From Thermoplasmata archaeon (lineage in GTDB: Archaea > Thermoplasmatota > Thermoplasmata > Lutacidiplasmatales > UBA184), in the NCBI GenBank assembly GCA_028864975.1, contig JAGWLG010000005.1, positions 1 through 64,000 of the forward strand: a DNA stretch of 64,000 bases, in the 5' to 3' direction. The notes beneath the pieces were generated by a model. That model saw only the letters and a program-made list of their open reading frames with translations, was not told the origin of the DNA and made no database searches. Shown piece by piece: positions 27,470 through 50,830 of this stretch (the first letter of the stretch is position 1; each line of letters opens with the position of its first letter). The translations under genes and the position numbers were made by a program.

Positions 27470-30400
27470 ATGGCACCGATGTCCCTGACCCGCCGCCCGG
27501 GCTCCCCCTCCTGGGTCCTCGGCACGCTCTCGCTGGTCTTCCTTGCCTCGATGATCACGACCTCCCTCCCGCTCCCCGCTCGCGCCGCACCTTCAGGTGG
27601 GACCTTCCCCGGTGCCTCTCTGGTCGTCGCGCACGCTCCCTCGCCCGCGGGAGCGGGGCCTGGCTGGTCCCAGGCCCTCTCTGTCCCCCGGAACTGGACC
27701 AACATCACCACGACGTCCGGGGTCGGGCCCTCCGCCCGTATGTGGACGGGGATGACCTACGACGCCGCCGACGGGTACCTCCTCCTCTTCGGGGGGTACG
27801 CACCGCTGACGAACAACGCCTACGGGGACACCTGGGGCTTCTTCGCGGGCCACTGGCACCTGCTCTCGAACACGGGACCCTCTCCCCGCGAGGCCGCGGC
27901 CGTCATCTACGACGCGCTCGATCGGTACGTCGTGCTCTTTGGAGGGGCCTTCAACTACGCCGGCAAGACGTTCTTCTACAACGACACGTGGGTCTGGTCG
28001 CACGGATCCTGGACCAACATTTCCGCGTCCCAGACCGTTTCACCGCCGCCTCGCCGGACGCCGGGGGTGGCCTACGACCCTCTCGAAGGCCGCGTCATCA
28101 TGTTCGGGGGCCGCGGAAGCTTGACCTCTTTCCTAGGCGATACATGGGCCTTCACCCGAGGTCTCTGGTCTCTCGTCAACGCCAGCACGCCGCTGCTAGG
28201 CTCGCGGGCGGGGCCAGGGTTCGACTACGACGCCTCCCTTGGGGGGATCCTCCTCTTCGGGGGCCAATCCGGGGGAGCGGCCCAGAACGACACCTGGCTC
28301 TTCCGCGGACAAACCTGGATGCAGCTTTCGCCCAGCCGGGCCCCGTCCATCCGAGGGAACTCCATGGACGCCTACGACCCCGGCGACGGCGTCTCGCTCC
28401 TCTTTGGAGGGAACGCGAACAATCTCGATCACAGCGACCTCTGGGCTTTCGGGGGGGGCGAGTGGACCAACCTCACCTCCCAGCTCGCTCTCCCGCTGCC
28501 CGGGCCCCGCGACACCGGGAGCATCGCCTTCGATCCCGTGAACGGAACCGTCCTCCTCTTCGGAGGCGAGTGGCAGCACAGCCCCGGGAACATCCTCGAG
28601 TACAGCGACACGTGGACGCTCGGAGGGGGACCCCTCCGCGCGGGTGCCCTCTCCGACCCGTACCGGGTCGACGCGGGGCAGCAGCCGACCACATCTGTCG
28701 CTTCCGAGATCGGTGGCACGCCGCCGTTCAACTACACCTGGAACCCCGGCGACGGGACCGGGACCGAATACGGTCAGGCCCCCACCCACATCTATGCGAC
28801 ACCGGGAACCTTCCACGAGAACCTCACCGTGACCGACGCCGTTGGGGCGGTCAGCTGGGCGCCCGCGACTGCCATGGTGGTGGGTGGGCCCCTCGTCGTC
28901 CCCACTCCTTGGATCTCACCCACCCCTGCCGAGGTGGGAGTCCCGCTCACCCTCCAGGTAAACGTCAGTGGGGGTTACGGTCCTGCCTCCCTCCAGTGGT
29001 CCGGCCTTCCCGTGGGGTGTGTGAGCCGCAACGCCACCGTCCTGAGCTGCGTCCCATCGGCGGCGGGGAACTCGACGCTCGTCGTCGCAGCCCAAGACAT
29101 CGACCTGAACTTGCGGTCGTCCTCGACTCGTCTATCGGTCTTCCCTGCCCTCGGGGCCGGCGCCGTCGGGGTCGCCCCCTTCGCGCCGGCCGTGGGACAA
29201 GTGGTCGCGTTCACGGTCTCCGGCGCTTCGGGCGCCCCTCCCTACGCGGTCCGCTGGACGTTCGACGACGGGGGCAGGGGGTCCGGCTCCCCCTACTACC
29301 GCTCCTTCCCCACCAGCGGGACGTTCTCGACCCATGTGTTCGTCAACGATAGCGCGGGGGCTTCGGTGGGCGTGTCGCGTGCCATCACGGTCCTGCCGCC
29401 TCTCGCCGGAGCGCCCACGGTGGCACGCGACCCCTCGGACAGCGGGGTCCCCGAGACCCTCTTCCTCTCCCCGAGTGGTGGGACCGATGTCTACACCGTC
29501 TCGTGGCGCGGGCTTCCTTCCGGTTGCCTGACGGCGAACCTCACCATCCTCTCCTGTACCCCGACCGCCTCCGGGACCTACACCGTTCGCGCCTGGGTGA
29601 ACGACACTGGGGGCACCTCCACACTGACCTCGGCGCTCATCTGGAGTGTCGCACCGAGGCTGAGCGTGACCGCGCATGCCTCGACGTCAACCGGACCCGC
29701 GCCGTTGTCCGTCCAGTTCACGGCGGGATACCAGGGGGGTGTGGGACCCGTGGCGACGGCGTGGTACCTTGGTGACGGCAGCTCGAACACACAGGAGAAC
29801 CTGACACACACCTATCTCGTCGCCGGGAGCTTCCTCCCCACCTTTTGGGCGAACGACAGCGGGGGAGGCTCGGTCTTCCAGTCCCTTCCGCTGCAGATCC
29901 TCGGGCCTCTATCGGTCTCAGTTACCCTGAGCGCGACCTCCGTCCTCGTAGGCACATCGGTCACCGTTACTGCGTCTCCCTCCGGCGGTGGCTCCGTCTC
30001 CTCGGTGGCGGCCTGGACGTTGAACGGAGCCCCATATTCGGCGACGGGGCTCTCGTTCAGCTACACCCCGTCAGGTGCCGGGGACGACGTCTTCTCCGTC
30101 CAGGTCCGCGACTCCTACGGGGAGCTCGCGAGCGGGTCGACAACGCTCCATGTAAGCTCTCCCTCGCCGGGACCGGGAGAGCGGACGGCGGGTCTGACCG
30201 GCCTCTCTCTCGTCCTTCTCGTCGCGGGAGTGGCAGGGGCCGCGGTAGCGCTTCTGGTGCTCGTCTCGTCCCTGCGCCGCCGTAGGACCTCGAAGGACCA
30301 GGGTCCCTTCTCGCGGAAGACCACCCCACTCGGCAGCGGCGATGGGGGTCCACGTTCCTTGCCGCCCTGGCCGATGAACCCCGTGACCCTGATCGAATCC

Positions 30401-30916
30401 TCCCACTCGGAGGACATCTGGAAGATGGCCTCCACCTCCGGAGTCGACCGGGCGAAGATGCTCATCCTCACCCCGTCACCGTCGGCCGCGCTCATGGCTC
30501 AGTATGGGCTCTCAGGGTCCTCGGTCTACCAGTTGTCACGGATGGAGGGGGAGTCGAACGTCTCTCCAGGAGACGTGGACCGGATCGGAAACCTCATCGA
30601 GACCCACATGCAGAAAGGGAATGGCAGGACCGTGCTCTTCGAAGGGATCGAACGGGTCGTGGACCAGGCCTCGATTCGATCCACCCGGCGCCTTCTAGAG
30701 TACGTCCAAGAGGTCTCGACGAGCACGCGGGGAGCAGTGCTGATCGCGCTCAACCCGACCATCCTCTCGCTCGCGGAACGGCGCCAGCTCGAAGGGCAAG
30801 GCACGGTGCTCCGAGTAGATGGAGGGGACTCGGGAGGAGAAGGCCGGTCCGACCGGGAACCCTCCCCATCCCCAGGGCGGGCCGCGGATCTGCCCGAGGG
30901 GCGTAGCGGGAAGTAG
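27470..30916 (+). CDS. Kelch-PKD transmembrane protein with cytoplasmic DUF835 domain
   Basis: About 1148 residues. Signal segment (WVLGTLSLVFLASMITTSLP), then six kelch repeats (MTYDAADGYLLLFGGY and later blades) to about residue 390. Several PKD/Ig-like modules follow, two with the Cys pair LPxGC...LxCxP. A membrane helix (LTGLSLVLLVAGVAGAAVALLVLV, near 930) comes next. The cytoplasmic part of about 190 residues has DUF835 features: WKMASTSGVDRAKMLILTPSP, RTVLFEGIERVVDQAS, LLEYVQEVS and AVLIALNPTIL. DUF835 occurs in archaeal signalling proteins. An outside propeller joined to an inside signalling domain looks like a surface receptor. The ATG at 27470 is preferred; a GTG at 27458 would add four residues. 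A helix-turn-helix gene lies convergently next to it. Confidence 0.8.
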   Translation: MAPMSLTRRPGSPSWVLGTLSLVFLASMITTSLPLPARAAPSGGTFPGASLVVAHAPSPAGAGPGWSQALSVPRNWTNITTTSGVGPSARMWTGMTYDAADGYLLLFGGYAPLTNNAYGDTWGFFAGHWHLLSNTGPSPREAAAVIYDALDRYVVLFGGAFNYAGKTFFYNDTWVWSHGSWTNISASQTVSPPPRRTPGVAYDPLEGRVIMFGGRGSLTSFLGDTWAFTRGLWSLVNASTPLLGSRAGPGFDYDASLGGILLFGGQSGGAAQNDTWLFRGQTWMQLSPSRAPSIRGNSMDAYDPGDGVSLLFGGNANNLDHSDLWAFGGGEWTNLTSQLALPLPGPRDTGSIAFDPVNGTVLLFGGEWQHSPGNILEYSDTWTLGGGPLRAGALSDPYRVDAGQQPTTSVASEIGGTPPFNYTWNPGDGTGTEYGQAPTHIYATPGTFHENLTVTDAVGAVSWAPATAMVVGGPLVVPTPWISPTPAEVGVPLTLQVNVSGGYGPASLQWSGLPVGCVSRNATVLSCVPSAAGNSTLVVAAQDIDLNLRSSSTRLSVFPALGAGAVGVAPFAPAVGQVVAFTVSGASGAPPYAVRWTFDDGGRGSGSPYYRSFPTSGTFSTHVFVNDSAGASVGVSRAITVLPPLAGAPTVARDPSDSGVPETLFLSPSGGTDVYTVSWRGLPSGCLTANLTILSCTPTASGTYTVRAWVNDTGGTSTLTSALIWSVAPRLSVTAHASTSTGPAPLSVQFTAGYQGGVGPVATAWYLGDGSSNTQENLTHTYLVAGSFLPTFWANDSGGGSVFQSLPLQILGPLSVSVTLSATSVLVGTSVTVTASPSGGGSVSSVAAWTLNGAPYSATGLSFSYTPSGAGDDVFSVQVRDSYGELASGSTTLHVSSPSPGPGERTAGLTGLSLVLLVAGVAGAAVALLVLVSSLRRRRTSKDQGPFSRKTTPLGSGDGGPRSLPPWPMNPVTLIESSHSEDIWKMASTSGVDRAKMLILTPSPSAALMAQYGLSGSSVYQLSRMEGESNVSPGDVDRIGNLIETHMQKGNGRTVLFEGIERVVDQASIRSTRRLLEYVQEVSTSTRGAVLIALNPTILSLAERRQLEGQGTVLRVDGGDSGGEGRSDREPSPSPGRAADLPEGRSGK

Positions 30917-31039
30917 GGCAGGTCGCGGGGCAGCCGGGTACCCCAAGAACTCTCCCTCGTCTTCCGCGGTGGGGCTTTCTCCCAAGCAGATACACGTGTT
31001 GAGCGCTGGTGAGAAAAGTGACCCGACGAACTTCCCGCC

Positions 31040-32167
31040 TCACATCACAGGGCTCGGAGGAGGATTTCCAGGGGAGTTGGGAGGAGATGAGGGAGCGAGC
31101 ACGAGAAGGCGATCATATCGATGGTCAAGCCAGATCGTCGTCTCCGCGGCTCTCACTTGCGTGACCTCGATGCTCTTGAGATGCTCCTGCAAGGTCAACA
31201 GAACAGGCCGCCGTGAGGGGATTGTGATGACGGTTTCGCTAGGGCCGGCGGCGGACTGACCCTGCGCGCCCAAGAGCATCTTCCCTTGGTGTTCCACGAG
31301 AAGGAAGGGGTAAACCCTGCACTGTTCGGTCAGCACGGGCAGGAGGGTCGACACGGTCTTGCCCGGAAGGAACTCCCCGCGAACGAAGACCGTCAGATCC
31401 GCGAGACGCCCCTGGAACTGGGGTATCCGCGCCGGGTCGGGCATCACGCGCCGCTCCACCCAGGCCTGCTCGACTAGCCGTCGCTGCGAGCGTGGGAGGC
31501 CGACCGGCCCCAAGAGGTGGCCCGGCCGACCATCCTCAGGGGCGGTGAACGGTCGGAGCAGTAGCTCCTGCGTCGTCCTTCGGAGGCCGTCAGAACTTAT
31601 GGCGGAGCCGCGGCGCGCTCCGACAGAGGCCGGACCTCCGAGTCCCCGAGGGTATGAGGTGGTCCCCGCGATGCCCGCCATGTTGGCGAAGAGCCCCTCG
31701 TAGTCGAAGTAGACCGGGAAGTTCGGCTCCTTGAGCGAAGGGGTGAGCAGGAGCGACTCGGAAGCGAGGTCTGTCCGCTGCAACCTCTCGGCAGTCTTCG
31801 TGGCCTGGGCGATCGAGGAGTGGAGGATGACCTCGAAGAGCAGGGCCGCCGATTGCCACAGCACCACAGCTCCCGGCTCCATCGACCAGGCGCGCCCCAG
31901 GTCCTGGGCCTTGTCCGCGTAAGGTCGGGCGAGCGCCACCGTCGCGTGCGTGAACCCGTAGAGGAGGGGGTCGGGGAGGTAGCGGTCCCGCACCCACCCC
32001 TCCTCGTAAGCGCGCTTGCGGACCGCGTGGTAAGTGGAGCGGGGAAGCTGGGTCTGGCGAAGCCGTTCACGCTCGTTCTCCTGCCCTGCCGCGAGGAGCG
32101 CACGGAGGACCCGCACCTCGGCATCCGTCAGGTCGCGCACACGAGCTCCGAGCGATGCCGGAGACAC
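31040..32167 (-). CDS. Helix-turn-helix protein with a large unknown C-terminal region
   Basis: A 375-residue protein. Residues 10-65 (LTDAEVRVLRALLAAGQENERERLRQTQLPRSTYHAVRKRAYEEGW) look like a winged helix. Residues 70-140 (YGFTHATVALARPYADKAQDLG, VLWQSAALLFEVILHSS) loosely resemble the Lrp/AsnC ligand-binding arrangement. The remainder includes VYFDYEGLFANMAG and a beta-rich segment of no recognised family. There is no membrane span, so it is a cytoplasmic DNA-binding regulator in all likelihood. It is convergent with the kelch/PKD/DUF835 gene (123 bases apart) and divergent from the secreted protein at 32275, whose promoter region holds an inverted repeat it might bind. Confidence 0.6.
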   Translation of the reverse strand: MSPASLGARVRDLTDAEVRVLRALLAAGQENERERLRQTQLPRSTYHAVRKRAYEEGWVRDRYLPDPLLYGFTHATVALARPYADKAQDLGRAWSMEPGAVVLWQSAALLFEVILHSSIAQATKTAERLQRTDLASESLLLTPSLKEPNFPVYFDYEGLFANMAGIAGTTSYPRGLGGPASVGARRGSAISSDGLRRTTQELLLRPFTAPEDGRPGHLLGPVGLPRSQRRLVEQAWVERRVMPDPARIPQFQGRLADLTVFVRGEFLPGKTVSTLLPVLTEQCRVYPFLLVEHQGKMLLGAQGQSAAGPSETVITIPSRRPVLLTLQEHLKSIEVTQVRAAETTIWLDHRYDRLLVLAPSSPPNSPGNPPPSPVM

Positions 32168-32235
32168 CGTAGCACGGTGTCCAGCCCTTCCGGCGCGGCA
32201 TGGGACGGGGCTTCTTGTAAGGGTATCGGAGTTCC

Positions 32236-32274
32236 AGAATAGGGGAACGGAGGCAAGTTCCCACCGGTGTTCCC
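32236..32274 (+). promoter_or_regulatory. Promoter and operator-like repeats of the gene at 32275
   Basis: AGAATA (32236-32241) is TATA-like. It is followed by GGGAAC (32243-32248) and GTTCCC (32257-32262), a 6-bp inverted repeat with an 8-nt spacer, and a further GTTCCC at 32269-32274 touching the ATG. The expected transcription start lies inside this array. Confidence 0.45.
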
Positions 32275-33795
32275 ATGCGTTCGCGTTTTGGATCCCTCTC
32301 CTGCTCGATCTGGATGGTCGCTGGTCTGCTCGCGCTTTCGATGCTCCTGCCGTTCACGACGGCCGCTCCGACGACGGGTTTCACCTCACCGAGTCCCGGG
32401 GCACCCGCGGAATCTTGGGCGTGGGGAGCGACCTTCGCTAAGACCGACCAGGGCACGTTCTCCGGGACCACTCAGAGCGGGGTCCCCTGGTCGCTCTCCT
32501 TCAGTATCCATGGTTTCCTTTCCTGGAACACCGTCCTCACCCAGACCAACACGTCCACCACATCCTTCGAACTGGAGGCGCAGCGGGTCATCCTCGGCGC
32601 TTACTTCCTTTCGGCCACCGGGACCCAGGGACCCACGACAGGCTCGGTGAATATCACGGTCCTGGCCTGGGAACAGGACCACTCCTTCTCCAATTTCACG
32701 ACCACCGGCACGGTGCTGCTGAACGGCACCACCTCCGTCCCCGCGGTCGCGATCGAGTCCGTCCACGCCCTCGTGAACTCCAACCTCACCGCGAGGGTCA
32801 ACGCGAGCCTCACCGGGGGCCAGACCGGCGCGATGCAGGGCTACGCGAGCGGGGCGGTCCACGCGGACGCGACGCTCAACTTCGCTCCGGCCCTGGGCCT
32901 CGTCCCGGTGACCCCCGTACCCGACAGTTGGTGGAACTCCACGAGCACCTACACTGCCCAGGGGACCTACGCCGACGCCTGCCACTTCCAGTTCTCCGCG
33001 ACGAACCCGATGGGGGCGTCCACCTCCGGAACCGGCACCTGCGGGGGCAGCGGGTCGCTGGATGCGACGAACACGGTCTGGCTCCGGGGAACGGATGCGG
33101 GCGACGACTACCTCGCGGGTTTCGGTCACTACCGCAGCACGCTCTTGGAGCTTGGGGGAAACCTCGACTTCAACATCCATGACGGCCTGATCTTCGTTCC
33201 CGGTCACCTCGACGTCTTTGGAGGAACGGGACTGGGCGGGACCAGTCCCGCGAGTCCCCAGGGCACCGAGGTCATCACGGGCCACGTGGACCTGGACCCC
33301 CACGCGTCGCACTTCGGCATGATCGCCTCGAGCTCACAGTTCTCTCCTCAAGCGACCGCGACCGGCGCCCTCCCGAGCGGGCTCGCCGCGACGTACGACG
33401 GGACGCAGGCTACGGCCTCGTCCTCCCCCGCGGTGAGCGGGCTCCCCTCCTACAATGTGCAGGGCAAGCCAGAAAGCGCGCAATCTGCGCTCACGGCGAA
33501 CGGCTGCCTGCTGAACCCCACCGGCTCGCAGTGCAAGACCTCGGCCCCCGCGCACACGTTCCTCCTGCTCCTCGTAGTCGTGGCAGCGGTCGCGGTCGTA
33601 GTGGCCGTGCTCGTGGCCCGACGTGAACGCGGCCCCAAGGGTGGAGTCGCTTCCCGTCCGGGCGTCTACATCCCCTCCCGCTCTGACGCCGGAGCTGGAT
33701 CCCGGAGTGGGGTCGCGGCGCCCACACCCCCGGGCACTCCTCCAGGATCCCAGCGCCCGACGCCGAGCCAGGACCCGCTGAGCAATCTCTGGTGA
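32275..33795 (+). CDS. Secreted, C-terminally anchored surface protein of unknown family
   Basis: A 506-residue protein. The signal peptide (SIWMVAGLLALSMLLPFTTA, cleaved after about residue 30) leads into a Thr/Ser/Asn-rich, beta-rich ectodomain with many N-glycosylation sequons, for example QTNTSTTSFE and SVNITVLAWE. A C-terminal helix (HTFLLLLVVVAAVAVVVAVLVAR) anchors it, and a Gly/Pro tail stays inside. Two cysteine pairs are visible (CHFQFS...CGGSG and GCLLNPTGSQC). I recognise no enzyme or binding family. The layout is that of a surface-layer-type or adhesive protein. Confidence 0.65.
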   Translation: MRSRFGSLSCSIWMVAGLLALSMLLPFTTAAPTTGFTSPSPGAPAESWAWGATFAKTDQGTFSGTTQSGVPWSLSFSIHGFLSWNTVLTQTNTSTTSFELEAQRVILGAYFLSATGTQGPTTGSVNITVLAWEQDHSFSNFTTTGTVLLNGTTSVPAVAIESVHALVNSNLTARVNASLTGGQTGAMQGYASGAVHADATLNFAPALGLVPVTPVPDSWWNSTSTYTAQGTYADACHFQFSATNPMGASTSGTGTCGGSGSLDATNTVWLRGTDAGDDYLAGFGHYRSTLLELGGNLDFNIHDGLIFVPGHLDVFGGTGLGGTSPASPQGTEVITGHVDLDPHASHFGMIASSSQFSPQATATGALPSGLAATYDGTQATASSSPAVSGLPSYNVQGKPESAQSALTANGCLLNPTGSQCKTSAPAHTFLLLLVVVAAVAVVVAVLVARRERGPKGGVASRPGVYIPSRSDAGAGSRSGVAAPTPPGTPPGSQRPTPSQDPLSNLW

Positions 33796-33834
33796 GCTCG
33801 GCTCGCGCCCCTCTCATCGAGGGGGAGCAACGGA

Positions 33835-33978: not shown

Positions 33979-34021
33979 TTAAGCCTCGCGGGGGGCCGAC
34001 CTTTTCGGGGGGCGACTCGGA

Positions 34022-41300: not shown

Positions 41301-41774
41301 CGCGTGGTACGTCCAGGTCTCGGTCCCGTTCTCCGGCCCTGACCCCGTGGCCCCCAAGAGCAGAACATAGCCGTCCGCGGCGTCGTAGGTCATCGCACTG
41401 TCATAGATCACGAAGCCTGGAGGAGAAGCGCCCCCTGTCGTGGACAGGGCTCGTCCAAGCTCCCCCTCCGGGGGAAGCGGTCCCAACACGCTTTGCGAAC
41501 ACCGAAGGTTGTTCGAGAGTTCAAGGGGGCGCAGGGGGAACATCATCGCGGGATGGGTCTGGTCGCAGGAGCGGCCACCTGCACCGGCCCCGATGGGACC
41601 GAACGAAGCGAGCCCGGTGGGGCCTGGCATCGGGGGGCGGAGAGGGGCTGCCCTCGCACCGACGGGAGGGATGGCCACGAGCACGGCGAGACCGACCGTC
41701 ATGACGAGCAAGAGTGCGCTCGTCGAGGGAAGGGGCGGACGGCCCCTACATGAGCGTGCCGAGCAGGTGTTCAT
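38355..41774 (-). CDS. Giant kelch-PKD surface protein with C-terminal anchor
   Basis: About 1139 residues. Signal segment (STSALLLVMTVGLAVLVAIPPVGARA), then six kelch repeats (MTYDAADGYVLLLGA to ATTFDWSDGYVVLFGGA) to about residue 470. About seven PKD-type modules follow, with the hallmark WxFGDG (WGWNFGDGG, YAWSFGDGS, AVWYFGDGG, ASWSFGDGT). A membrane helix (LGGGAALVGMALAVAFVRLQ) and a short basic tail end it. There is no intracellular domain. The ATG at 41774 is preferred because TTTTTG on the minus strand (41801-41806) lies at TATA distance. The gene's 5' side faces the PKD-winged-helix regulator gene on the same strand, 135 bases away. Confidence 0.8.
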   Translation of the reverse strand: MNTCSARSCRGRPPLPSTSALLLVMTVGLAVLVAIPPVGARAAPLRPPMPGPTGLASFGPIGAGAGGRSCDQTHPAMMFPLRPLELSNNLRCSQSVLGPLPPEGELGRALSTTGGASPPGFVIYDSAMTYDAADGYVLLLGATGSGPENGTETWTYHAGVWTELFPSSFPESCVASSMAFDPFDSEVVYFAGTGSAPGGTCAAAGQTWTFRAGVWSQLHPPVSPPSREAAAFTNDSADGYMLLFGGGNGGCGTVCGDTWTFVGGAWTELFPPTSPSARAGAGLTYDAADHEVVLFGGTTVVNPEPGGFWVNMLQDTWAWRGGSWVLLHPSGPVPPEPYDDGFTYDAADAVPFFTNADDNATNCLRGGCDPEIWWTFHSGNWTNPQNNDRIWCQRGSPCAWEYPLNRMAEATTFDWSDGYVVLFGGANYLWSQLNDTWTYRAGIWSNVSAGMVASAVASPPSGAVPLTVSFSGTVRGGSAPYTWRWVYGDGSAESLAQDPVHTYNASGTYLAGLQVTDALGRLGSTEVWVYVRNSNSTLQASASATPLSGAVPLTVTFSGGASGGSTPYSWGWNFGDGGTSAVQNPAHAYTTPGTFPATLEVTDSRGATSNASLTITALSPPMLAVTPSATPSSGAVPLKVLFNATAFGGAPPYTWNWSYGDLTPHSYAENPRHTYNASGTYNSTVVVEDRLGHFASSWVWVTVSNSNASLLAHPSATPMSGAAPLAVSFTGGATGGSGTYVAYAWSFGDGSTSVVQDPTHTFTAVRSFLVTLNVTDSRGAWSIAGLTITVTGGGAKLTANPSANPSSGVAPLSVAFQSNPTGGSGGYAAVWYFGDGGSQNGLNVTHLYSLAGAFAAAVFLTDSTGGTSNASITVQVRGGCTGCPMSTTVASSPNPAPAGHPVTFWANASGGTSPYVASWSFGDGTNGTGMVASHSYASTGSYTATVEVFDSAGHEVVAQLSESVQVGCNCTIPALVLDLSATPRWGPAPLSTMVYYDVSGGVGTRHLNLSFGDGSTGFSQAFPSPSCQGCPSASVGHSYARPGVYTVYGEVSDGGGRNVASSLLITVNGTAQTRSTTLSPLEVGALGGGAALVGMALAVAFVRLQRRQRSRLEEQGRAIASAMERDARRPPPPPASVLP

Positions 41775-41800
41775 CGCCCATCCACTCGGTCGTCGAGGGA

Positions 41801-41806
41801 CAAAAA
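41801..41806 (-). promoter_or_regulatory. TATA-like box of the giant kelch-PKD gene
   Basis: Minus-strand TTTTTG (within CCTTTTTGTC), about 27-32 nt before the ATG at 41774. Confidence 0.4.
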
Positions 41807-41908
41807 GGCCTCTCGGAGATACGCCCGAGATACGCCGTTCCGGGGTCGCAACACGGCGCGGGGAGCCTCCCACCCGCGTCGAAGGAGGGAGCCGAACGGT
41901 CCTCGTCC

Positions 41909-43327
41909 TCATTCCTGCGGGGCCGCCTCCTTGGCCGCTCCTCGACCAGGATCGAGGGTCGCACCCTTCCGTCGAAGCTCCTTGGCCAGGGCCTCTCCGC
42001 GGCCGGTCAATCGGTAGACCTTCATGCGACGTGGTCGGCCGCGCACGTGGCGAACGTCGACCAGAAGGATCCCTCCGGCCTCCAGACGTCGTAGGACATT
42101 GGTCAGCGCGTTCTGACGGACCCCGAGGGTCTCGGCCATGCCCTGCTGGGTGAACGCAACCGGTGCGACATCGTCCGCGTGAAGCGCCCCTTGCAAGGCC
42201 AGGTGGACGACGACCCTCTCGGAGACGCGAAGGGCGTCCCGGGACGGAGGTGTCGCCTTCGGACGCGAAGGCCGGGCCGGCCTCGCGGTCACGCCCTGGG
42301 TCGCTCCGGAAACCTCTGGGGGCTTCGGAGGGGATATCGGAACCGTTCCAGGGACGGCCACGGCAACCACGGCCTCGACCGAAGAGCTCGCAGTGGGGGG
42401 GCTCGTGATGGCCGTGGGGGTCGTGGCCACGCTTCCGTCAGTCGTGGCCTGGGTATCAGCGACCTCTCTGCGAGCCTTCGTTTCCCGGCTCTCCTGACCC
42501 GTTCGTATCCCCCCAAGTCGCAGCAGGGCGTAGAGCGCGAGCCCTCCCGAGGCCGCTCCCAGGCCTAGCGCCCAGAACAGAGGCGTGATCTCCAGCGAAG
42601 AGGGAGAAGCCGCCGCGGCGGTGACGTTGACCCACGTCGTGGCTGACGCCGGGGTGCCTTTGGAATCGGTGACCGTGAACGTGACCAGATACGTTCCCGC
42701 ATCTCGGTACGAATGATCGAGCGCGATCCCCGTTCCGCTCGATGCGTCCCCGAAGGTCCAGGAGTAGGAAGCGTACGTGCCGGTGCCTCCCGTCACGCGG
42801 CCCTCGAAGGAGACCGTCAGCGGCGCTTCCCCTCCCAGAGGCGAGGCCACGATCGAGACCTCTAACGCCGAAGGCACGACATGGATGGTGATGTTGGCGC
42901 TCGAGGTCCTGAGGCCCTCGTGCACCGTAACGGTCGTGTCGAAGTACCCCGCGTGGCCGTAGGTGTGGTATCTGGGGTCCCAGGGCGCATGGCTCGAGAC
43001 GTTGACATCGGGAGTTCCGTCGCCGAAGCTCCAGTTGTAGCTTGTCGGTACCCCCGAGATCGCGGTCGCGTTCAACAAGACGACCAGGGGAACCCCGCCG
43101 TAGCTAGGGGTCGCGGAAAGCGCGACGAGGAAGAGGGGCTCCGGGGAAGTCGAGGCCTCCTCCGGCGCCGTCCCCGCCCCAGGGGTCCCTGAGAAGAAGA
43201 GGAGGAGGACCCCGAGGAGCAGGGTGATGACCAGGCGCCGAACGTGGCGTACGTAGCACCTCAAGGCGAATGTCGGCACCCTGTAGGAGCGATATGGGCA
43301 TTTGCTCCCGGGGCCGGTACCCCACAC
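41909..43327 (-). CDS. PKD-ectodomain transmembrane protein with cytoplasmic winged-helix domain
   Basis: Up to 472 residues. Signal/anchor (VRRLVITLLLGVLLLFFSG, about 29-47). Two PKD modules outside the cell (YNWSFGDGTPDVNVSS; YSWTFGDASSGTGIALDHSY). A membrane helix (TPLFWALGLGAASGGLALYALL, about 248-272), then a disordered 90-residue linker. The C-terminal winged helix is at 363-455 (VVVHLALQGALHADDVAPVA, FTQQGMAETLGVRQNALTNV, then GRPRRMKVYRLTGRG). This is a one-component membrane regulator: ligand outside, DNA binding inside. The start is uncertain: GTG at 43327 (7 bases after the HIT stop) or GTG at 43279. The winged helix is clearly related to the one ending the STAND ATPase at 47735. 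Confidence 0.78.
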   Translation of the reverse strand: MWGTGPGSKCPYRSYRVPTFALRCYVRHVRRLVITLLLGVLLLFFSGTPGAGTAPEEASTSPEPLFLVALSATPSYGGVPLVVLLNATAISGVPTSYNWSFGDGTPDVNVSSHAPWDPRYHTYGHAGYFDTTVTVHEGLRTSSANITIHVVPSALEVSIVASPLGGEAPLTVSFEGRVTGGTGTYASYSWTFGDASSGTGIALDHSYRDAGTYLVTFTVTDSKGTPASATTWVNVTAAAASPSSLEITPLFWALGLGAASGGLALYALLRLGGIRTGQESRETKARREVADTQATTDGSVATTPTAITSPPTASSSVEAVVAVAVPGTVPISPPKPPEVSGATQGVTARPARPSRPKATPPSRDALRVSERVVVHLALQGALHADDVAPVAFTQQGMAETLGVRQNALTNVLRRLEAGGILLVDVRHVRGRPRRMKVYRLTGRGEALAKELRRKGATLDPGRGAAKEAAPQE

Positions 43328-43333: not shown

Positions 43334-43765
43334 TCAGGCCTTCTCTCTGAGGACGGCCGCCGTCTTGCTGAGCTCATCAGGGCTCGTAGGTTGGACCTTC
43401 ATCTCCCACCATTCCTGGAGTGCGAGGTCGTCCCCCTCCCGCCGGGGGACAACGTGGATGTGGAGGTGCCTCACGCTCTGCTCCGCCGATCTGCCACTCG
43501 AGACGAACAGATTGTTGCCCGTGACCTCGAGGACCTTGCGAAGGCGAAGAGCGGTCCACCGCGCGAGCTCGGCCACCTCCGCCCAATCCTCGGGAGTCAC
43601 CTCTGTGAGGTCCGCCGCATGGGCCTTCGGGATGACCAGCGAGTGTCCCCAGCTTATCGGGTTGACATCGAGGAAGGCGAGGGCGCGGGGCGACTCGCGG
43701 ATCCGGTGGGAAGGGATCTCTCCCTTGGCGATGGCGCAGAAGACGCAGGGGGGTCCGCTACCCAT
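43334..43765 (-). CDS. HIT-family nucleotide hydrolase/transferase
   Basis: A 143-residue protein. The N-terminal CVFCAIAKGEIPSHRI has a zinc-binding C7xxC10, LDVNPISWGHSLVIPKAHAADL follows, and the catalytic triad HLHIHVVPR has His100, 102 and 104. HIT proteins hydrolyse nucleoside phosphoramidates or dinucleoside polyphosphates. It ends 6 bases before the earliest start of the membrane regulator on the same strand, so the two probably share a transcript. Whether the link is functional is not known. Confidence 0.92.
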   Translation of the reverse strand: MGSGPPCVFCAIAKGEIPSHRIRESPRALAFLDVNPISWGHSLVIPKAHAADLTEVTPEDWAEVAELARWTALRLRKVLEVTGNNLFVSSGRSAEQSVRHLHIHVVPRREGDDLALQEWWEMKVQPTSPDELSKTAAVLREKA

Positions 43766-43828: not shown

Positions 43829-46800
43829 TCACCGCGCGCCAAACGGAGGCATCTCGAGACTCCTCTGACGGAGGGCGATCGCCCCGCTCTGAGGGTCGAA
43901 CTCGATCCTCTCGGAAAGGATCGTGGGGGGGTGTCGGACCTGTGTCGCCCCCCCTGCTGGGGTCGATGGCGACGGTTTCGAAGTGTCGCCCGGAGCCGGA
44001 GACGCGCCGGACGCAACAAGGCCCCCGGACGCTCTCCTTCGAGGGGGGCGAAGGAGGAGGAAACCCGCCAGAGCCGTGATCCCCACCGTACCAAGGACCA
44101 GTCCCGCCACGATGGCCGGGTCCCCAAGGGCCGAGCCCGACCTGGCCCCACCTGGCGCACTGACCTGGACGTACAGCACGCTGCTGATACCCCGTCGCCC
44201 CGATGCATCGGTCACCAGGACGAAGACCGCATACTCGCCCGTCATCGCGAACGTGTGCGTGGTGGAGAGCGAGGTCGAGCTGAACGTGGTCCCATCTCCG
44301 AAGTTCCAGAGAACCTGATACGGCACAGCTCCGCCCTGTACGACCGCCGTGAACTGCGTCGGACTGCCCTCTCGCGGGAAGGACGAGCTCCAGAAGCTGA
44401 CGTTCAGAGGAAGGTCCCCTCCCCCGCAGGATGTCGCGTTGACGATGGCGATCGCGGGAAGGGTCGCCGAGTCCCCCACTTGGTCCTCCACGGTGAGACG
44501 GGGATGATAGGTTCCCGGGACCGAGTAGTTGTACGAGATGGTCGCGGGGCCCTGGACCGTGCCCGCTCCGGTGAAGTTCCAGAGGAAGGTGTACGGGGGG
44601 ACTCCCCCCGTCGCGGAAGCCTGAAAGACGACGTTGACCGGCGCGCAGGCGCTGACGCTGGTCGCCGTGGCCGATCCCACGAGGACGGTGCCGTTCCCTC
44701 CCCCGCCGCTCTCGTTGACCTGGATGCGCAGCGACGCGATGGCGCTGTTCCCCCCGCTGTCGTTGACGAGAACGGTGGCCTCGTAGGTACCGGGGGTCGG
44801 GTAGGTATAGGCCGGGCAGGCCTCGGAAGACGCTCCCCCGTTCCCGAAGGTCCACGCATAGGTGTAGGGCGCGAGCCCTCCCGCGACCTGGGCACAGAAC
44901 TGGACCGCGAGCGGCGCCGTACCGCTCGTAGGCTCGCCCGAGACCTGGATCAGGACCGACGAGGAGCCGTTAGGGTCGACCGTGACCATCAACGCGGCGC
45001 TTGTCGCAGAGTTCCCGCGGGCATCCGTGACGAGAAGCTGGACAGTGAAAGTTCCGGTCGCGTAGATGGTGCAACTGAAGCTCGCGTTCCTGGGAGCGGT
45101 GCAGGGGACCCCCGTCCAAGCGAAGGCATAGGGGGGAGCGCCGCCGGAGGCCGCTCCGGTGAACTGGACGAGCAAAGGCGCGACCCCGGTCGTCGGATCC
45201 GCGGAAGCCGTGGCCGAGAGCGCTGGGGGTGAGGTGACGACGACGGTCACGCTGGTCGATGCGGAAGCGCCCGTCGAGTCGGTGGCCACGACGGTGGCGG
45301 TGAAGGTTCCTGGCGTCGAATAGATGTGACTCACCGTGGCCCCCGTGGCCGTCGAACCGTCGCCGAGGTCCCAGCTCCAAGAGTAGGGGGGCGATCCCCC
45401 CGCCGTGGCGGCGTCCAGGGTGCAGGGAGTTCCAAAGCCGACGGGGTCCGGCGTGGCGCTCGCCGCTACATGGAGCGTGGTCGAACTGGTCACGTTCAGC
45501 GTCCAGGTGTCACCAAAGAGGGTGGTCGACGTGCCGCCCCCGAAGTAGAGGACGTACCCCTCGGCGGGGTCGTAGGCCATGGCGGCGCCGGCACGGCCGT
45601 CGGGCATCGCCGTGAGCAGACTCGTCAAGTTCGTCCAGTTCGCTCCCGACAGGCTCCACAGCTCTACACAGCTGGTCGGGCCGCTGCAGGAATGCCGCGG
45701 CCACGTGTCCGTGAAAGGGAGGAGGACCCCTTGAGCGGCCGGATCGTCGACCATCTGCTCCCACCCCCCGAAGGGCGGCTCTGGGCTCCACGTATCGACC
45801 TTCCATGCCCCGTTCTGGTACAGACAGGTCCCGTAGGTGTCGTTCCCCCCTACGGAGACCAAGTAGGCGTCGGTCGAGTCGAAGGTGAGAGGGTCAAGGA
45901 GGGTGCAAGAGTCGACCGCAGCATCCTGCCACCAGGTCCCCGCGTGGTAGAAATCGAGCGGGCTCGCTGACGGGGTAGGGTTCGGGTAGCGCCCGATCAA
46001 GGCTACCGCAGCCGCGACCGGGTCGTAGGTAAGGTCCGGGGCGTACGACCATGACCCGAGGGACGAGGGAAGGGTCCCTTCCAGCTGCCACTGGTCATTG
46101 GAGAAGACCCAGACATCGTTCAGACCACGGACCGAGCTGTTGGACCCGCCCACGAGGAGGAGGTACCCGTCCGCAGCGTCGTACGTCATCATCGCGCCGT
46201 AGCGCGGTGAGGGGGCGGTCGAGAGTCCCGCCGAGAGGTTGGTCCAGACCCCGTGCTCGAAGGCCCACGTGTCGCCGAGGGGGGCGCTCCTCGCGCCCGC
46301 TCCCCCGAAGAGGAGCACGGCCTGCATGGCCGGGTCGTAGGCGGCCGCCGCCCCCGTCCGAGCCGAAGGGGAGGCAGGGGTGGTGAGGAGGGTCCAGGCA
46401 GCGGATACCGTCGGAGGCGTCACCGTGATGGTGAGATTGACGAACGCATGCCAAGGCTGGGCCTGGGTATCGATCGCCTCGAAGGTCACGAGATAGGTCC
46501 CTGGGGCTGTGAACGTGTGGGCACCGAAGGTCCAGGTGCCGGTCCGGGCGTAGCAGTAACTGTTGCTCGGCCCCGCCCTCGCCCCATCGCCGTAGTCGAA
46601 GCTGCAGTCATAGTAGTAGTAACCGGCGGGGTCCCCCCTCACGGAGGTCTCAAACCCGACGGTGAGCGGCGCGGGACCCGCCGTCCTCGAGGCGTTCGCC
46701 CAGGCTTGCAGAACGAAGGAGGGCGACACTCCCGCCGGAGCGCCGTCGGTTTGAGGACCCGATGGGCCCTCTACCACGCTGCCGCGCGCGAGCGTTTCTG

Positions 46801-47095
46801 CCCAAGGGGGTGCGAGCTGCGGTCCGAGCCGTTGACCCGGGAGCTGCCAGTGGTCGACCGGCTCCCACAGGTGGGCCATGGCGTCCGATCGGACCTCCGT
46901 GGGGGTCGGCGAGTGGGCAGCCAACGACAGCGCCCCCGACACCGGGTCCGATAGCGGGCGTCCTGCATGGACAGCAAGCCCCGCTGGGAGGATGCTCAGA
47001 AGGAGCATCATGACCAAGAGGAGCACCATCGCCGTATCGGTCGAGCTCCTGGAGGGTCTGGGGCAGCAGCCCATTGACGGGCGCGATGCATTCAT
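43829..47095 (-). CDS. Giant PKD-kelch-PKD surface protein with C-terminal anchor
   Basis: A 1088-residue protein. Signal/anchor (MVLLLVMMLLLSILPAGLAV), a first PKD-type module with CSFDYGDGARAGPSNSYC (about 120-230), six kelch-like repeats (for example AYDPAMQAVLLFGGAG, MTYDAADGYLLLVGGS, MAYDPAEGYVLYFGGG), then about five PKD-type modules (WSWDLGDGS, YAWTFGNGG, VLWNFGDGT). A membrane helix (PAIVAGLVLGTVGITALAGFLLL) and a cytoplasmic tail of about 80 residues follow. One module carries a Cys pair (GVPCTAPRNASFSC). It differs from the other kelch proteins by having a PKD module in front. It is transcribed away from a promoter region rich in repeats (47147-47209). Confidence 0.8.
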   Translation of the reverse strand: MNASRPSMGCCPRPSRSSTDTAMVLLLVMMLLLSILPAGLAVHAGRPLSDPVSGALSLAAHSPTPTEVRSDAMAHLWEPVDHWQLPGQRLGPQLAPPWAETLARGSVVEGPSGPQTDGAPAGVSPSFVLQAWANASRTAGPAPLTVGFETSVRGDPAGYYYYDCSFDYGDGARAGPSNSYCYARTGTWTFGAHTFTAPGTYLVTFEAIDTQAQPWHAFVNLTITVTPPTVSAAWTLLTTPASPSARTGAAAAYDPAMQAVLLFGGAGARSAPLGDTWAFEHGVWTNLSAGLSTAPSPRYGAMMTYDAADGYLLLVGGSNSSVRGLNDVWVFSNDQWQLEGTLPSSLGSWSYAPDLTYDPVAAAVALIGRYPNPTPSASPLDFYHAGTWWQDAAVDSCTLLDPLTFDSTDAYLVSVGGNDTYGTCLYQNGAWKVDTWSPEPPFGGWEQMVDDPAAQGVLLPFTDTWPRHSCSGPTSCVELWSLSGANWTNLTSLLTAMPDGRAGAAMAYDPAEGYVLYFGGGTSTTLFGDTWTLNVTSSTTLHVAASATPDPVGFGTPCTLDAATAGGSPPYSWSWDLGDGSTATGATVSHIYSTPGTFTATVVATDSTGASASTSVTVVVTSPPALSATASADPTTGVAPLLVQFTGAASGGAPPYAFAWTGVPCTAPRNASFSCTIYATGTFTVQLLVTDARGNSATSAALMVTVDPNGSSSVLIQVSGEPTSGTAPLAVQFCAQVAGGLAPYTYAWTFGNGGASSEACPAYTYPTPGTYEATVLVNDSGGNSAIASLRIQVNESGGGGNGTVLVGSATATSVSACAPVNVVFQASATGGVPPYTFLWNFTGAGTVQGPATISYNYSVPGTYHPRLTVEDQVGDSATLPAIAIVNATSCGGGDLPLNVSFWSSSFPREGSPTQFTAVVQGGAVPYQVLWNFGDGTTFSSTSLSTTHTFAMTGEYAVFVLVTDASGRRGISSVLYVQVSAPGGARSGSALGDPAIVAGLVLGTVGITALAGFLLLRPPRRRASGGLVASGASPAPGDTSKPSPSTPAGGATQVRHPPTILSERIEFDPQSGAIALRQRSLEMPPFGAR

Positions 47096-47146
47096 GGTGG
47101 CACCGCGATGAATCTGTGTTCTCTCCGTTCAAATATCGAACTCAAA

Positions 47147-47209
47147 GATACGCTGAGGATACGCCACGAACAGGACGCCCGTAGCGTATCCGGGTCGTAG
47201 CTCGCTACG
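47147..47209. promoter_or_regulatory. Cluster of inverted and direct repeats between divergent genes
   Basis: GATACGCT (47147-47154) and GATACGCC (47158-47165) are direct repeats. AGCGTATC (47183-47190) is the inverted form of the first. A perfect hairpin CGTAGC-TC-GCTACG follows at 47196-47209. The cluster lies between the giant surface protein (start 47095, minus) and the small Cys protein (start 47283, plus). Confidence 0.55.
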
Positions 47210-47253
47210 GATCCTTGGCGACCTCCCCACTCATCATCGGCGCGGGAGGAGAT

Positions 47254-47260
47254 GTTTTAG
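47254..47260 (+). promoter_or_regulatory. TATA-like box for the small Cys protein
   Basis: GTTTTAG ends 22 nt before the ATG at 47283. Confidence 0.45.
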
Positions 47261-47282
47261 GCGCCACCTATTCGCGCCCCCC

Positions 47283-47522
47283 ATGACCCTCACTCGGCGT
47301 TCGGCCATGGCTCCGAAAGGGGCCTACTGCTTCGGATGCAACCAGGCCATCGACGGCGGGGCACCTTCGGTCCGCTTCGAGAGCGACCTTGTCCCCGCCC
47401 CGGACCGCCCCGAGCTGGCAAACCTCTACTTCCACCCTGGCCATCTCCTTCGCTATGCTCGTCGCCGGAACTGGACCGAGCTTGCCTCTTTCCTTGAAGC
47501 TAATACTCCGTCGAGCTGGTGA
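47283..47522 (+). CDS. Small CxxC protein
   Basis: A 79-residue protein with CFGC at residues 16-19 (GAYCFGCNQAIDGG) and later His (YFHPGHLLRYARRR), so one possible metal site of Cys-Cys-His-His type. There is no membrane span. An internal ATG at 47307 would give a 71-residue form, but the TATA-like box supports 47283. It precedes the STAND ATPase gene (212-base gap) on the same strand. Possibly a small zinc-binding adaptor; not assigned. Confidence 0.5.
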   Translation: MTLTRRSAMAPKGAYCFGCNQAIDGGAPSVRFESDLVPAPDRPELANLYFHPGHLLRYARRRNWTELASFLEANTPSSW

Positions 47523-47734
47523 TCCTGTTCCGGGCTCTCGGGCACCGAGGGTCCGTGGTCTGCGATGACGAGGAGGGCCCCGGGACCCTGAGTCGTTGTG
47601 TCGTCCTCCACGGGGACGGGAGAGGTGGAGCACCCGAACCCCACTCGAAGAGATGCTGCTCCTCGGTCGGGCCCTTCTTCGGGGAGCATCTCCTCCCGTG
47701 AACACCTAATGCCCCTCAAGATTCTCCTACGAAC
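47523..47734. other. Gap between the small Cys gene and the STAND gene
   Basis: A 212-base stretch with no convincing gene. Short open frames run in both directions but have no family or start signal. A CTAATG at about 47707-47712, some 23-27 nt before the STAND GTG, is the only promoter-like sequence. Confidence 0.4.
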
Positions 47735-50700
47735 GTGGGGCATTCCCCGTCAAGTTCCCGAGCGATGAAGACCGGGACCCCGAGCTCGGACATCCCAGGA
47801 CTCTCGAGGTCTGCCCAGCTCGTGGGCCGGCGAGAGGTCATGGCCGAGCTCCGACGGATCCTTCTGGCCGCGAAGGAGGGGACCGGCTCCACGGTCGCGC
47901 TCACAGGCCCCGGTGGGATCGGGAAGACGAGCCTCCTCCGGTGGCTGGACGAGGAAGCGCGGGGCGAGGGCTTTGCAGTGCGGATGGGTTTCTGCTTGCA
48001 GGGGATCGACGCGCCTTTCTTTGCCTTCGAGCAGGTCTGGGGAGCATCGTCAGCCATACGTGACCCACCGGAGAGCCCGGCCGGGTCTAGTGCCGCGGCC
48101 GCGGCGGACGACGACGGGGCCCGGCTCGCGGCCGGGCCTGCGCAGCACGCCTCCATGGAACTCCGGCCGCAAGAGACGGGAGCCCTCCCGGGACGTCCTC
48201 TCCCTTTCCTCGGGCAGGCCGATGACGAGATCCCCCCGTCGGTCACGCTCCTACGATACCGGGAAGAGCTCGCGCAGGCCTCGAGCCAACGCCCGTTCCT
48301 CCTCCTGCTTGACGACCTGCAGTGGGCGGATCCCCAGTCCCTTCAGGCGCTGCAGTTCCTCGCTCGAAACCTGAGCGAGCTCCGCGCGTTCGTGGTCGTC
48401 GCCTTACGCGACGACCCGCACTCCCTCCAGGGGACCGACCCGGCCGAGGGACCGACGGTCGGGGAGACCATCGACCAACTGGTACGGGAGCGGACCCTTC
48501 GCCGCTTCTCCCTCTCCCCCTTCACTCGCGGAGAGGTCCGCCGTCTGGTCGCCAACGCGCTCGGGGGGGGCGTAGTCTCCGGAGAAAGCGAAGCGATGCT
48601 CCAGATCCTGACCGAACGAAGCGGAGGGATCCCCTACTACGTCGAGGAGCTCCTCCAGCAGCTGCGTTCGGAGGGCTACGTCGAGCGCGTCCGTGGAGGT
48701 TGGAAGCTCCGGCCCCCGGAGTCCTGGAAGGGTGCGCGTCGCTCGGGGGAAGGGCCCCGAGCGCCCATCCCCCTCTCGCTCCAGCGCCTGCTCAGGGCCA
48801 AGGTCTCGCCGCTCTCCCCGTCGGAGCGACGCGTTCTCGAGGTCGGGGCGGTGGTGGGGCTCCGCTTCGACCTTGAAGCCGTTGCCGCCGTCACGGGGCT
48901 CGGGGGTGCCGAGACCGAGTCGGTCTCCCGAAAGCTCTCGGAGGGGAGCCCGCTCCTGGTCCCCCCGGGAGGGGGTGGGGCTTCCTGGTCGTTCGTCCAC
49001 CCTCTGCTGTGGGAATACCTCCTCCACGAGCTGGCCCCGGGGTCCTTGCGGCGCATCTCTCAGGACCTCGCGACGTGGTGGGAGGTCCATCGCCCTCAGG
49101 AGATCGGGCGGATCGCGGGGTTCTACCATGCCGCTGGCGATGCGCGACGGGGACCGCCATCGATCCGTCGGGCGCTCGAGCATGCCCGACGGTCCCTCGC
49201 CTTGGACCAGGTCGAGACCTACCTGGGGTGGCTGCGGGAGCTGCTCCTGGAGCAGGGAACTTCGACGGCCCTCGTCGTCGAGGAGCAGTTGTTCATCGTC
49301 GACGCCCTGCGCTCGCTGGGAGGCTTCGAACATGGTCGTCGGGTCCTCGAGGGCCTCACCGACCTTCCGATCCCTCCCCCCCTGCGAGGCGAGGTCCTGG
49401 TCCGTCTGGCGGATCTGGTCAAGAACTACGATCCAGAGCGGAGCCAGCGACTCCTGACCGACCTCGAGCAGGGGACTTCGGTCGCCGGGCTGGTGCCCTA
49501 CGGGACCCTGCTGGGACGGATCCGCGTCGCCCAGGCCTATCTCCGAAACGAACAGATGGACTACTCCAAGAGCCTGGAGCTCGGCAGCGAGGCGCTCTCC
49601 CTCCTCGGGCCGAAGGGCGACCCGTACGAACGATCTCGTGTGCTCTCGTACCGCGCGTCCGCCCTGGCCAATCTCGGCCGGTTCGAGGAGGCGGCCGCCG
49701 CCTCAGGGGGGGCCCAGGAGATCGCCGAGAACGCGGGGTTGATGGGGATCCTCGAGCAGGCCAAGGTGGGCGCCGCCTATGCTCAGCTCGCCCGGGGCCA
49801 CGTTCGAGAGGCCCACGAGGACTTCCTTGCCGCCACCTCGCTCGCCCGACGGTCCGGCCACATCCCCCTCGTAGTGCACGGGCTGCTCTGCGACTGTCTT
49901 TCCCTCCTCGAGTTGGGTCGGTCCGACGAAGCGCGAAGCTTCGCGGAAGAGGCGAAGCTCCTCGCACGGCAGTTCGGCATGCAACGGTACGTGGCCGAGG
50001 CGGAGGGCACTTTGGCCGCTATCGCCCTTCGTCGTGGTGACACCATCAACGCGGTCCGGCACGGGAAGATCGCGCTGGGCTTGTCCAGTGGCATGGGGGA
50101 GGGCCAGCGGGTCAGCTTCCGTCTGACCCTGATCCGCGCTTACGCCGCCAGGGGGGAGGGGGCGGCGGCGCTGCGGGAGCTCTCCGAGGTCCTTCCCCCC
50201 GGGACGGACCCGAAAAGCGCCAGCTATCCGGACATCGCGCTCACGGGCGCTGAGGCCCTTGAGGCCAACGGACGGTCGGAGGAGGCCCGGGCGTTCCTGG
50301 AGGCCTCCCTCTCAAGGTCGCGCGAGATGCGGCTGCCCCTCATCGAAGCGGACTCGCTCCTCGCGCTCGCGGTCTGGGAGGAGCGCCACGGGGGGGCGGC
50401 GGCCTCGAGTCGACGCCGAAAGGAGGCTGAAGCTATGCTGGCACCGCTCTCGCTCTCCCTCCATGGGCGCCCACCGCCCCTCCTCTCCACCCTGCATGCC
50501 TCCCGCCGCCCTCGCCCCTCCCGGAGCGAGCGAAGGACCCCCGGCCTCTCCACGGGAGACCTCGTCCTCCTGCATCTCCAGCGCAACCTCCGCCACAGCG
50601 CCCTCCTGAGCGACGGAGGGGCCGCACCGGTGGCCCTCACGCAGGAAGGGATCGGAGAGGAACTCGGGCTGTCTCAGGGACGTTTGGCCGCCCCGCTCCA

Positions 50701-50830
50701 ACGGCTCGTGCAACGAGGGCTCGTGAAGTGCGCGGTGTGCCACGTGCAAGGGTTCGAAAGGCGCCGAAAGGCCTACGCGCTCACTCGCAAAGGACTTCTT
50801 GTGGCGAAGGGGCTCCAACCCCGCCGTTGA
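47735..50830 (+). CDS. STAND/AAA ATPase with TPR-like repeats and C-terminal winged helix
   Basis: Up to 1031 residues. After a short N-terminus, SAQLVGRREVMAELRRILLAA opens an AAA_16-type ATPase. Walker A is GPGGIGKTS at 58-66 and Walker B is LLLLDDLQWADP with Asp193-Asp194. A helical sensor region and TPR-like repeats follow from about residue 450 to 900 (RLADLVKNYDPERSQRLLTD; LGRFEEAAAASGGAQEIAEN). The last 80 residues are a winged helix (APVALTQEGIGEELGLSQGR...HVQGFERRRKAYALTRKG). This is the plan of MalT-like STAND signal switches: ligand binding to the repeats drives ATP-dependent assembly, and the winged helix binds DNA. The GTG at 47735 or the ATG at 47765 could be the start. No membrane span. 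Confidence 0.85.
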   Translation: MGHSPSSSRAMKTGTPSSDIPGLSRSAQLVGRREVMAELRRILLAAKEGTGSTVALTGPGGIGKTSLLRWLDEEARGEGFAVRMGFCLQGIDAPFFAFEQVWGASSAIRDPPESPAGSSAAAAADDDGARLAAGPAQHASMELRPQETGALPGRPLPFLGQADDEIPPSVTLLRYREELAQASSQRPFLLLLDDLQWADPQSLQALQFLARNLSELRAFVVVALRDDPHSLQGTDPAEGPTVGETIDQLVRERTLRRFSLSPFTRGEVRRLVANALGGGVVSGESEAMLQILTERSGGIPYYVEELLQQLRSEGYVERVRGGWKLRPPESWKGARRSGEGPRAPIPLSLQRLLRAKVSPLSPSERRVLEVGAVVGLRFDLEAVAAVTGLGGAETESVSRKLSEGSPLLVPPGGGGASWSFVHPLLWEYLLHELAPGSLRRISQDLATWWEVHRPQEIGRIAGFYHAAGDARRGPPSIRRALEHARRSLALDQVETYLGWLRELLLEQGTSTALVVEEQLFIVDALRSLGGFEHGRRVLEGLTDLPIPPPLRGEVLVRLADLVKNYDPERSQRLLTDLEQGTSVAGLVPYGTLLGRIRVAQAYLRNEQMDYSKSLELGSEALSLLGPKGDPYERSRVLSYRASALANLGRFEEAAAASGGAQEIAENAGLMGILEQAKVGAAYAQLARGHVREAHEDFLAATSLARRSGHIPLVVHGLLCDCLSLLELGRSDEARSFAEEAKLLARQFGMQRYVAEAEGTLAAIALRRGDTINAVRHGKIALGLSSGMGEGQRVSFRLTLIRAYAARGEGAAALRELSEVLPPGTDPKSASYPDIALTGAEALEANGRSEEARAFLEASLSRSREMRLPLIEADSLLALAVWEERHGGAAASSRRRKEAEAMLAPLSLSLHGRPPPLLSTLHASRRPRPSRSERRTPGLSTGDLVLLHLQRNLRHSALLSDGGAAPVALTQEGIGEELGLSQGRLAAPLQRLVQRGLVKCAVCHVQGFERRRKAYALTRKGLLVAKGLQPRR

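Follow-up and report, generated by a model that had tools for sequence, protein, structure and literature searches.

Local regulators paired with kelch/PKD surface-protein genes, one of them a predicted membrane-tethered transcription factor, in a Lutacidiplasmatales archaeon

The DNA analysed here (the window) comprises 64,000 nucleotides of contig JAGWLG010000005.1 from a Thermoplasmata archaeon of the order Lutacidiplasmatales. We consider it probable, with moderate confidence, that it contains an accessory island of surface genes lying among housekeeping genes and served by local regulators, one of which is a membrane-tethered transcription factor. The conserved unit is a local pair of a regulator gene and a surface-protein gene, not the whole 24 kb that these genes occupy. 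Such pairs and the promoter sites that recur with them suggest that conditions outside the cell may act directly on the genes for what it displays. The lineages are uncultured archaea of acid soils, and three types of regulator can now be tied to surface genes, together with a concrete promoter element.

Gene content of the window

The main features are collected in Table 1; genes were predicted with a home-made caller, and start positions are uncertain. All components named in the original prediction were recovered, including three kelch/PKD giants with K1 ending in a cytoplasmic DUF835 domain (Pfam and TM scan), a PKD-TM-winged-helix protein (PKD2-TM-wHTH) and a free helix-turn-helix protein (Pfam and models), as well as a STAND ATPase with a similar C-terminal winged helix (41% identity to that of PKD2-TM-wHTH over 91 residues, E = 3e-14 in a two-sequence blastp). 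Genes for an epimerase, MoaA, a PD-(D/E)XK nuclease and a HIT-family protein are interleaved among the surface genes. A Pfam scan of the proteins encoded between 25.8 and 57 kb gave no HisKA, HATPase or REC match, and thus no two-component system was recognised there. The window also contains a long open reading frame with a MEDS-domain match below the Pfam cut-off (55249-57063) and, between the K3 promoter and the STAND gene, a small unlisted frame of about 79 codons with a zinc-ribbon-like CFGCNQ motif (47282-47521, + strand).

Table 1. Positions of the features discussed in the text (window coordinates).
Feature	Position	Strand	Description and basis
K1	27458..30916	+	1152 aa; signal peptide, 6 kelch, 6 PKD, TM, cytoplasmic DUF835; Pfam, TM scan, profile repeat counts
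Double-Lrp regulator	31040..32167	-	375 aa; free HTH regulator, predicted tandem Lrp/AsnC-like fold; AlphaFold (pLDDT 89.8), Foldseek
Conserved element TAGCACGGTGTCCA	32170..32183	+	Between double-Lrp gene and surface gene
X506	32275..33795	+	506 aa; signal peptide, ectodomain without Pfam match, TM, short tail; divergent to double-Lrp gene in relatives
K2	38355..41912	-	Kelch/PKD/TM giant; probable true start Met47 at 41774; Pfam, sequence 41740-41940
K2 upstream element CGTATCTCGGGCGTATC	41818..41834	-	Perfect repeat; T-rich TATA-like element 11 bp downstream; pattern match 41800-41823 with one mismatch
PKD2-TM-wHTH	41909..43327	-	472 aa; PKD2-TM-linker-wHTH, predicted membrane-tethered transcription factor; Pfam, NCBIfam, full-length homologues, AlphaFold
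HIT-family housekeeping gene	43334..43765	-	Between K3 and PKD2-TM-wHTH gene; Pfam; syntenic homologue in G003 without surface genes
K3	43829..47095	-	1088 aa; kelch/PKD/TM giant; Pfam
K3 promoter element	47129..47163	-	CGTATCCTCAGCGTATC (47147-47163), N11, TATTTGAA
Imperfect inverted copy of CGTATC element, CGTATCCGGGTCGTAGC	47185..47201	+	On STAND-gene strand; no TATA-like element after it
STAND regulator	47735..50830	+	1031 aa; STAND (AAA_16), MalT-like TPR, winged helix; Pfam
LysM/Amidase_6 protein	50799..54080	+	Secreted; C-terminal hydrophobic segments; downstream neighbour of STAND gene; Pfam, TM scan

K1 is a candidate receptor, a separate kelch/PKD-TM-DUF835 protein that may signal through DUF835 to a partner. 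Its DUF835 domain (PF05763, E = 4.9e-9) scores 36.5 bits, above the Pfam cut-off of 33.1. Fused forms resembling K1 occur at three other loci (L169, L173, L174), and at a fourth (L177) the DUF835 protein is encoded by an adjacent gene. K2 and K3 have one TM each and short tails without a recognised domain, and they resemble regulated products more than receptors. As judged from the sequence, translation of K2 probably starts at Met47, which would make the apparent 4-bp overlap with the PKD2-TM-wHTH gene a start-codon artefact.

A predicted membrane-tethered transcription factor

In the AlphaFold model of PKD2-TM-wHTH, the PKD domains and the winged helix (residues 371-451) have pLDDT values mostly over 90, whereas the linker falls below 50 and is probably disordered. 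A hydrophobic segment at residues ~246-272 lies below the hydropathy cut-off used and aligns with a clear TM in relatives. The winged helix is modelled with high confidence as helices with a two-strand wing, and it finds Rv3488 (E = 3.6e-5) and SlyA in PDB sequence searches, with Pfam matches below cut-off; by these sequence and model predictions it is of the MarR/PadR type. Homologues in many genomes of the family, and in one order-level relative with 36% GC, align over the full length. In most loci, a same-strand gene for a protein with a signal peptide, a variable number of PKD domains and a TM, with or without kelch repeats, lies directly upstream. In the window, K3 is found upstream with the HIT gene intervening, and K2 lies downstream.

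A CGTATC element upstream of surface genes

A motif search upstream of PKD cassettes returned CGTATC, which by eye was part of a larger arrangement, CGTATC-N5-CGTATC-N11-TATA, present as a whole or in part at many of these cassettes. As some of the loci counted later had also served to define the element, only the remaining sites are independent. The 3.6-Mb genome contains only two perfect matches to YGTATCN5YGTATC, one before K3 and one before the likely start of K2, the giants on either side of the PKD2-TM-wHTH gene; with one mismatch allowed, this pattern is only about twice as frequent as its reversed control. The single-repeat pattern YGTATCN11TWTWTRA, with at most one mismatch, gave five sites in the same genome and none in the reversed control. 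K3 and K2 account for one site each, two more precede members of a single secreted family, and the fifth separates a PKD gene from an fn3-TM-wHTH gene. Members of that secreted family preceded by the element occur in this genome and in three genomes of the same genus (L267 6548-7663, L279 1-1476, L280 and L281), and a Pfam scan of the family gave no match.

Exact matches to the single-repeat pattern numbered 10 in 37 family genomes (reversed control, 1), and nine of the 10 precede genes for signal-peptide (secreted or surface) proteins, the exception being in genome G004. They occur in 7/12 family genomes with PKD-TM-wHTH vs 1/25 without it, presence of the protein having been assigned by hand in related and hence non-independent genomes. 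In the AT-rich 36%-GC relative (G026), the reversed pattern is common as well (10 vs 5), and we therefore consider only the three sites there that show extended similarity: before the PKD partner, before the gene following the wHTH gene and before a pro-kumamolisin-type secreted protein. That genome has a single strong wHTH match, with a CGTATC site on either side. Near-identical sites were seen there before the PKD partner, a GGGNGT-repeat membrane protein and the pro-kumamolisin-type protein (L083 = C27; L275 = C2:17653). Cassettes examined and found without the element are the same-genus orthologues L054, L084 and L085, as well as L073, L082, L101, L095, L102 and L106.

From these associations, we propose that K3, PKD2-TM-wHTH and K2 would make up a first unit, in which a single-pass factor exposes its PKD domains outside and holds its winged helix inside on a flexible linker. 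The winged helix probably binds the direct CGTATC repeats that immediately precede the TATA elements of both giants and would thereby control K3 and K2. The spacing of these repeats, one helical turn, and their place just before TATA would suit an activator. More tentatively, a control layer of this kind may extend across the Lutacidiplasmatales: a PKD surface protein and PKD2-TM-wHTH, produced from one operon, would touch outside the membrane, and coat assembly or cell contact would be read out at the CGTATC promoters of a surface regulon.

A serious but unlikely alternative is that a different soluble factor, either another wHTH protein or an unlinked regulator, reads CGTATC while PKD-TM-wHTH acts elsewhere, their linkage reflecting co-inherited surface islands. 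Several related wHTH proteins are encoded in the genome, no PKD-TM-wHTH gene was seen next to two element-bearing secreted genes (C97 and C38), and the cassettes devoid of the element would also fit. However, both perfect repeats of the genome flank the PKD-TM-wHTH gene, the sites of the 36%-GC relative flank its wHTH cassette, and the presence of the element across genomes follows that of PKD-TM-wHTH, all of which favours PKD2-TM-wHTH as the reader.

Conservation of the neighbourhood and exchange of modules

In a genome of the same genus (G003, locus L226), the flanking housekeeping genes are kept at 69-91% identity. The genes retained are those for the double-Lrp protein, the epimerase, MoaA and HIT, as well as those matching 54257, 54898 and 57182 of the window, whereas K1, K2, K3, PKD-TM-wHTH, the STAND gene and the LysM protein are absent from this locus. 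Between its epimerase and MoaA genes lies a different kelch/PKD giant, approximately 30% identical to K1. By this sequence comparison, the surface genes appear to have been inserted into a framework of housekeeping genes. The 24-kb block was therefore rejected as a single conserved cluster, G003 keeping the housekeeping genes without the giants and their regulators.

The winged helix was found at E <= 1e-12 in 191 of 400 genomes of the class, fused to three types of body (PKD-TM, fn3-TM and STAND). On a tree of the domain, which has few columns and many open forks, these labels change 10 times, compared to a minimum of 4 and to 32 with shuffled labels. Thus, exchange of modules on this winged helix has been occasional rather than free. 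The fn3-TM-wHTH proteins are giants of ~1570-1720 aa (L055 7464-12623, L086 and L087), and in L055 and L086 a PKD gene adjoins the giant on the opposite strand. The ectodomain of a 1087-aa TM-wHTH protein encoded at another locus (L109 3070-6333) has no match in Pfam. The genome of the window (G000) also has at least 12 STAND-TPR paralogues with DUF835 (e.g. L060 9264-12413). The idea that STAND bodies carry DUF835 as an exchangeable C-terminal output was considered and rejected, since in the one paralogue examined Pfam places the domain at residues 147-264, within the ATPase region.

These results bear on the idea, put forward in the original prediction, that the whole 24 kb forms one integrated surface-sensing network, which might detect neighbours, glycans or attachment, with the kelch/PKD giants as receptors signalling jointly through DUF835 and winged helices. 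The coupling of kelch/PKD to DUF835 in K1 and its relatives, fused or adjacent, and a winged helix common to PKD-TM, fn3-TM and STAND proteins are what such a network would show. Nevertheless, we judge it improbable, because the block is not kept in G003, K2 and K3 carry no output domain, the modules changed seldom on the tree, and STAND-DUF835 genes are not located beside surface genes (0/12). An outer module joined through a membrane helix to an inner output describes only two proteins of the window, K1 and PKD-TM-wHTH, and does not extend to K2 and K3. The modules are exchangeable to the extent that the winged helix sits on three bodies and DUF835 is fused or adjacent, but their changes are few and DUF835 is internal in the scanned STAND protein. 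Likewise, co-occurrence in related genomes holds for gene pairs, at rates far above control, and fails for the 24-kb neighbourhood. The island with local regulators is thus the reading we retain.

STAND and double-Lrp regulators

The STAND protein matches AAA_16 (1.2e-21), TPR_MalT (2e-10, below the curated cut-off) and MarR_2 (7.4e-5, below cut-off), and so combines a STAND NTPase with MalT-like TPR and a C-terminal DNA-binding domain. The LuxR-type HTH of the MalT family proper was not found by Pfam, the C-terminus matching MarR/PadR/Crp-type winged helices. In STAND-wHTH relatives, the next gene downstream is of PKD, kelch or X506 type in six of seven cases, some of them with GH25 or Amidase_6 domains. 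In the window, this position is occupied by a secreted LysM/Amidase_6 protein, here in an archaeon, whose start is likely internal. We suggest a second unit in which the STAND-TPR-wHTH regulator would probably act on this neighbouring gene in a MalT-like manner. Many STAND ATPases are defence proteins, and a role in anti-phage defence rather than surface-gene control would also accommodate a weak BrxD match (E = 3.5e-5, P-loop region only). With the MalT-like TPR, the C-terminal winged helix and the constant surface-gene neighbours, this appears very improbable; besides BrxD, PADLOC gave no convincing defence match among the proteins tested.

The free HTH protein was not recognised as Lrp in a Pfam sequence search, and the best Foldseek matches of its model are NirDL (1.2e-6) and Lrp/AsnC regulators (2e-5). 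It is best modelled as a predicted tandem (double) Lrp/AsnC-like protein with HTH and RAM-like folds. At 30 of 34 distinct loci, its relatives have a PKD/kelch or X506-type gene as neighbour, mostly in divergent orientation, and kelch/PKD giants adjoin the double-Lrp paralogues at four loci of the genome to which the window belongs. The third proposed unit would consist of this regulator, probably acting on the divergent surface gene X506. In most loci, CTAGCACGCNGTCCA is found ~20 bp from the start of the regulator gene, and the information content of this promoter motif is 12.5 bits, compared to 8.6-9.2 in mononucleotide shuffles of noncoding DNA. Genome-wide, the motif is not enriched over its reversed control and was rejected as a regulon marker; it is thus a conserved local element at divergent promoters.

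Pairing of regulators with surface genes

After deduplication of loci, a surface-gene neighbour was present for 17/19 PKD-TM-wHTH genes (the two loci without a PKD neighbour being L077 and L079), 7/8 STAND-wHTH genes and 18/21 double-Lrp genes. The corresponding values were 0/12 for STAND-DUF835 relatives and 4/128 for control genes from the STAND-DUF835 regions of the same genome (Fisher p ~1e-16, ~1e-4 and ~1e-16 for the three regulator types in the order given, with related genomes that are not independent samples). Chance clustering in a genome so rich in PKD and kelch that any regulator adjoins such a gene (78 PKD matches were counted, and 103/758 genes pooled from regulator-centred regions have such a neighbour) is hardly credible, as the regulators exceed even this pooled control (p = 8e-13 for PKD-TM-wHTH) and STAND relatives lacking the wHTH score zero.

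Comparison with known systems

In the literature searched, no paper connects kelch, PKD, winged helix and Thermoplasmatota, and we came across no closer match than the systems below and nothing on how such archaea control which giant surface proteins are displayed. The STAND protein resembles MalT/LAL-type regulators in its STAND NTPase, MalT-like TPR and C-terminal DNA-binding domain. Those regulators carry a LuxR-type HTH, whereas the STAND protein has a predicted MarR/PadR-type winged helix and a surface or secreted protein as neighbour. The free HTH protein shares predicted tandem HTH and Lrp/AsnC-like domains with the Lrp/AsnC (feast/famine) regulators, but has two copies per chain and occurs mostly at surface-protein loci. 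DUF835 proteins were described as iKaiC, with DUF835 fused to REC/PAS (PMC5847659). DUF835 is a cytoplasmic signalling domain in both cases, but in the K1 type it is fused to, or encoded beside, kelch/PKD-TM ectodomains. PKD and β-propeller surface proteins of acidophilic archaea (Mia14) are thought to serve in cell-cell interaction, and the part of that report consulted describes no regulators linked to them (PMC5498576), in contrast to the linked regulators found here.

In transmembrane transcription regulators (TTRs) of the bacterial ToxR/ToxS type, a DNA-binding domain and a sensor are joined by a membrane helix (PMC10269533). PKD2-TM-wHTH, with a DNA-binding domain and at least one predicted TM in one chain, conforms to this definition at the sequence level and often has an adjacent membrane-protein gene. 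It differs in its PKD ectodomain, its C-terminal MarR/PadR-type wHTH and its partner, a PKD surface protein usually encoded upstream; the main text of that survey mentions neither PKD nor MarR. The PKD-TM gene conserved beside PKD2-TM-wHTH recalls the ToxR/ToxS pair, and by analogy the partner may modulate the factor. ArnR and ArnR1 of Sulfolobus acidocaldarius are membrane-bound one-component regulators of surface structures that bind a 15-bp box recurring ahead of the core promoter (PMC6396743). PKD2-TM-wHTH is likewise archaeal, one-component, predicted to be membrane-bound and linked to surface genes with repeats upstream of the core promoter. However, the HTH of ArnR is N-terminal and its boxes are inverted repeats (TCGAC-N5-GTCGA), whereas PKD2-TM-wHTH combines a PKD ectodomain and a C-terminal wHTH with direct CGTATC repeats.
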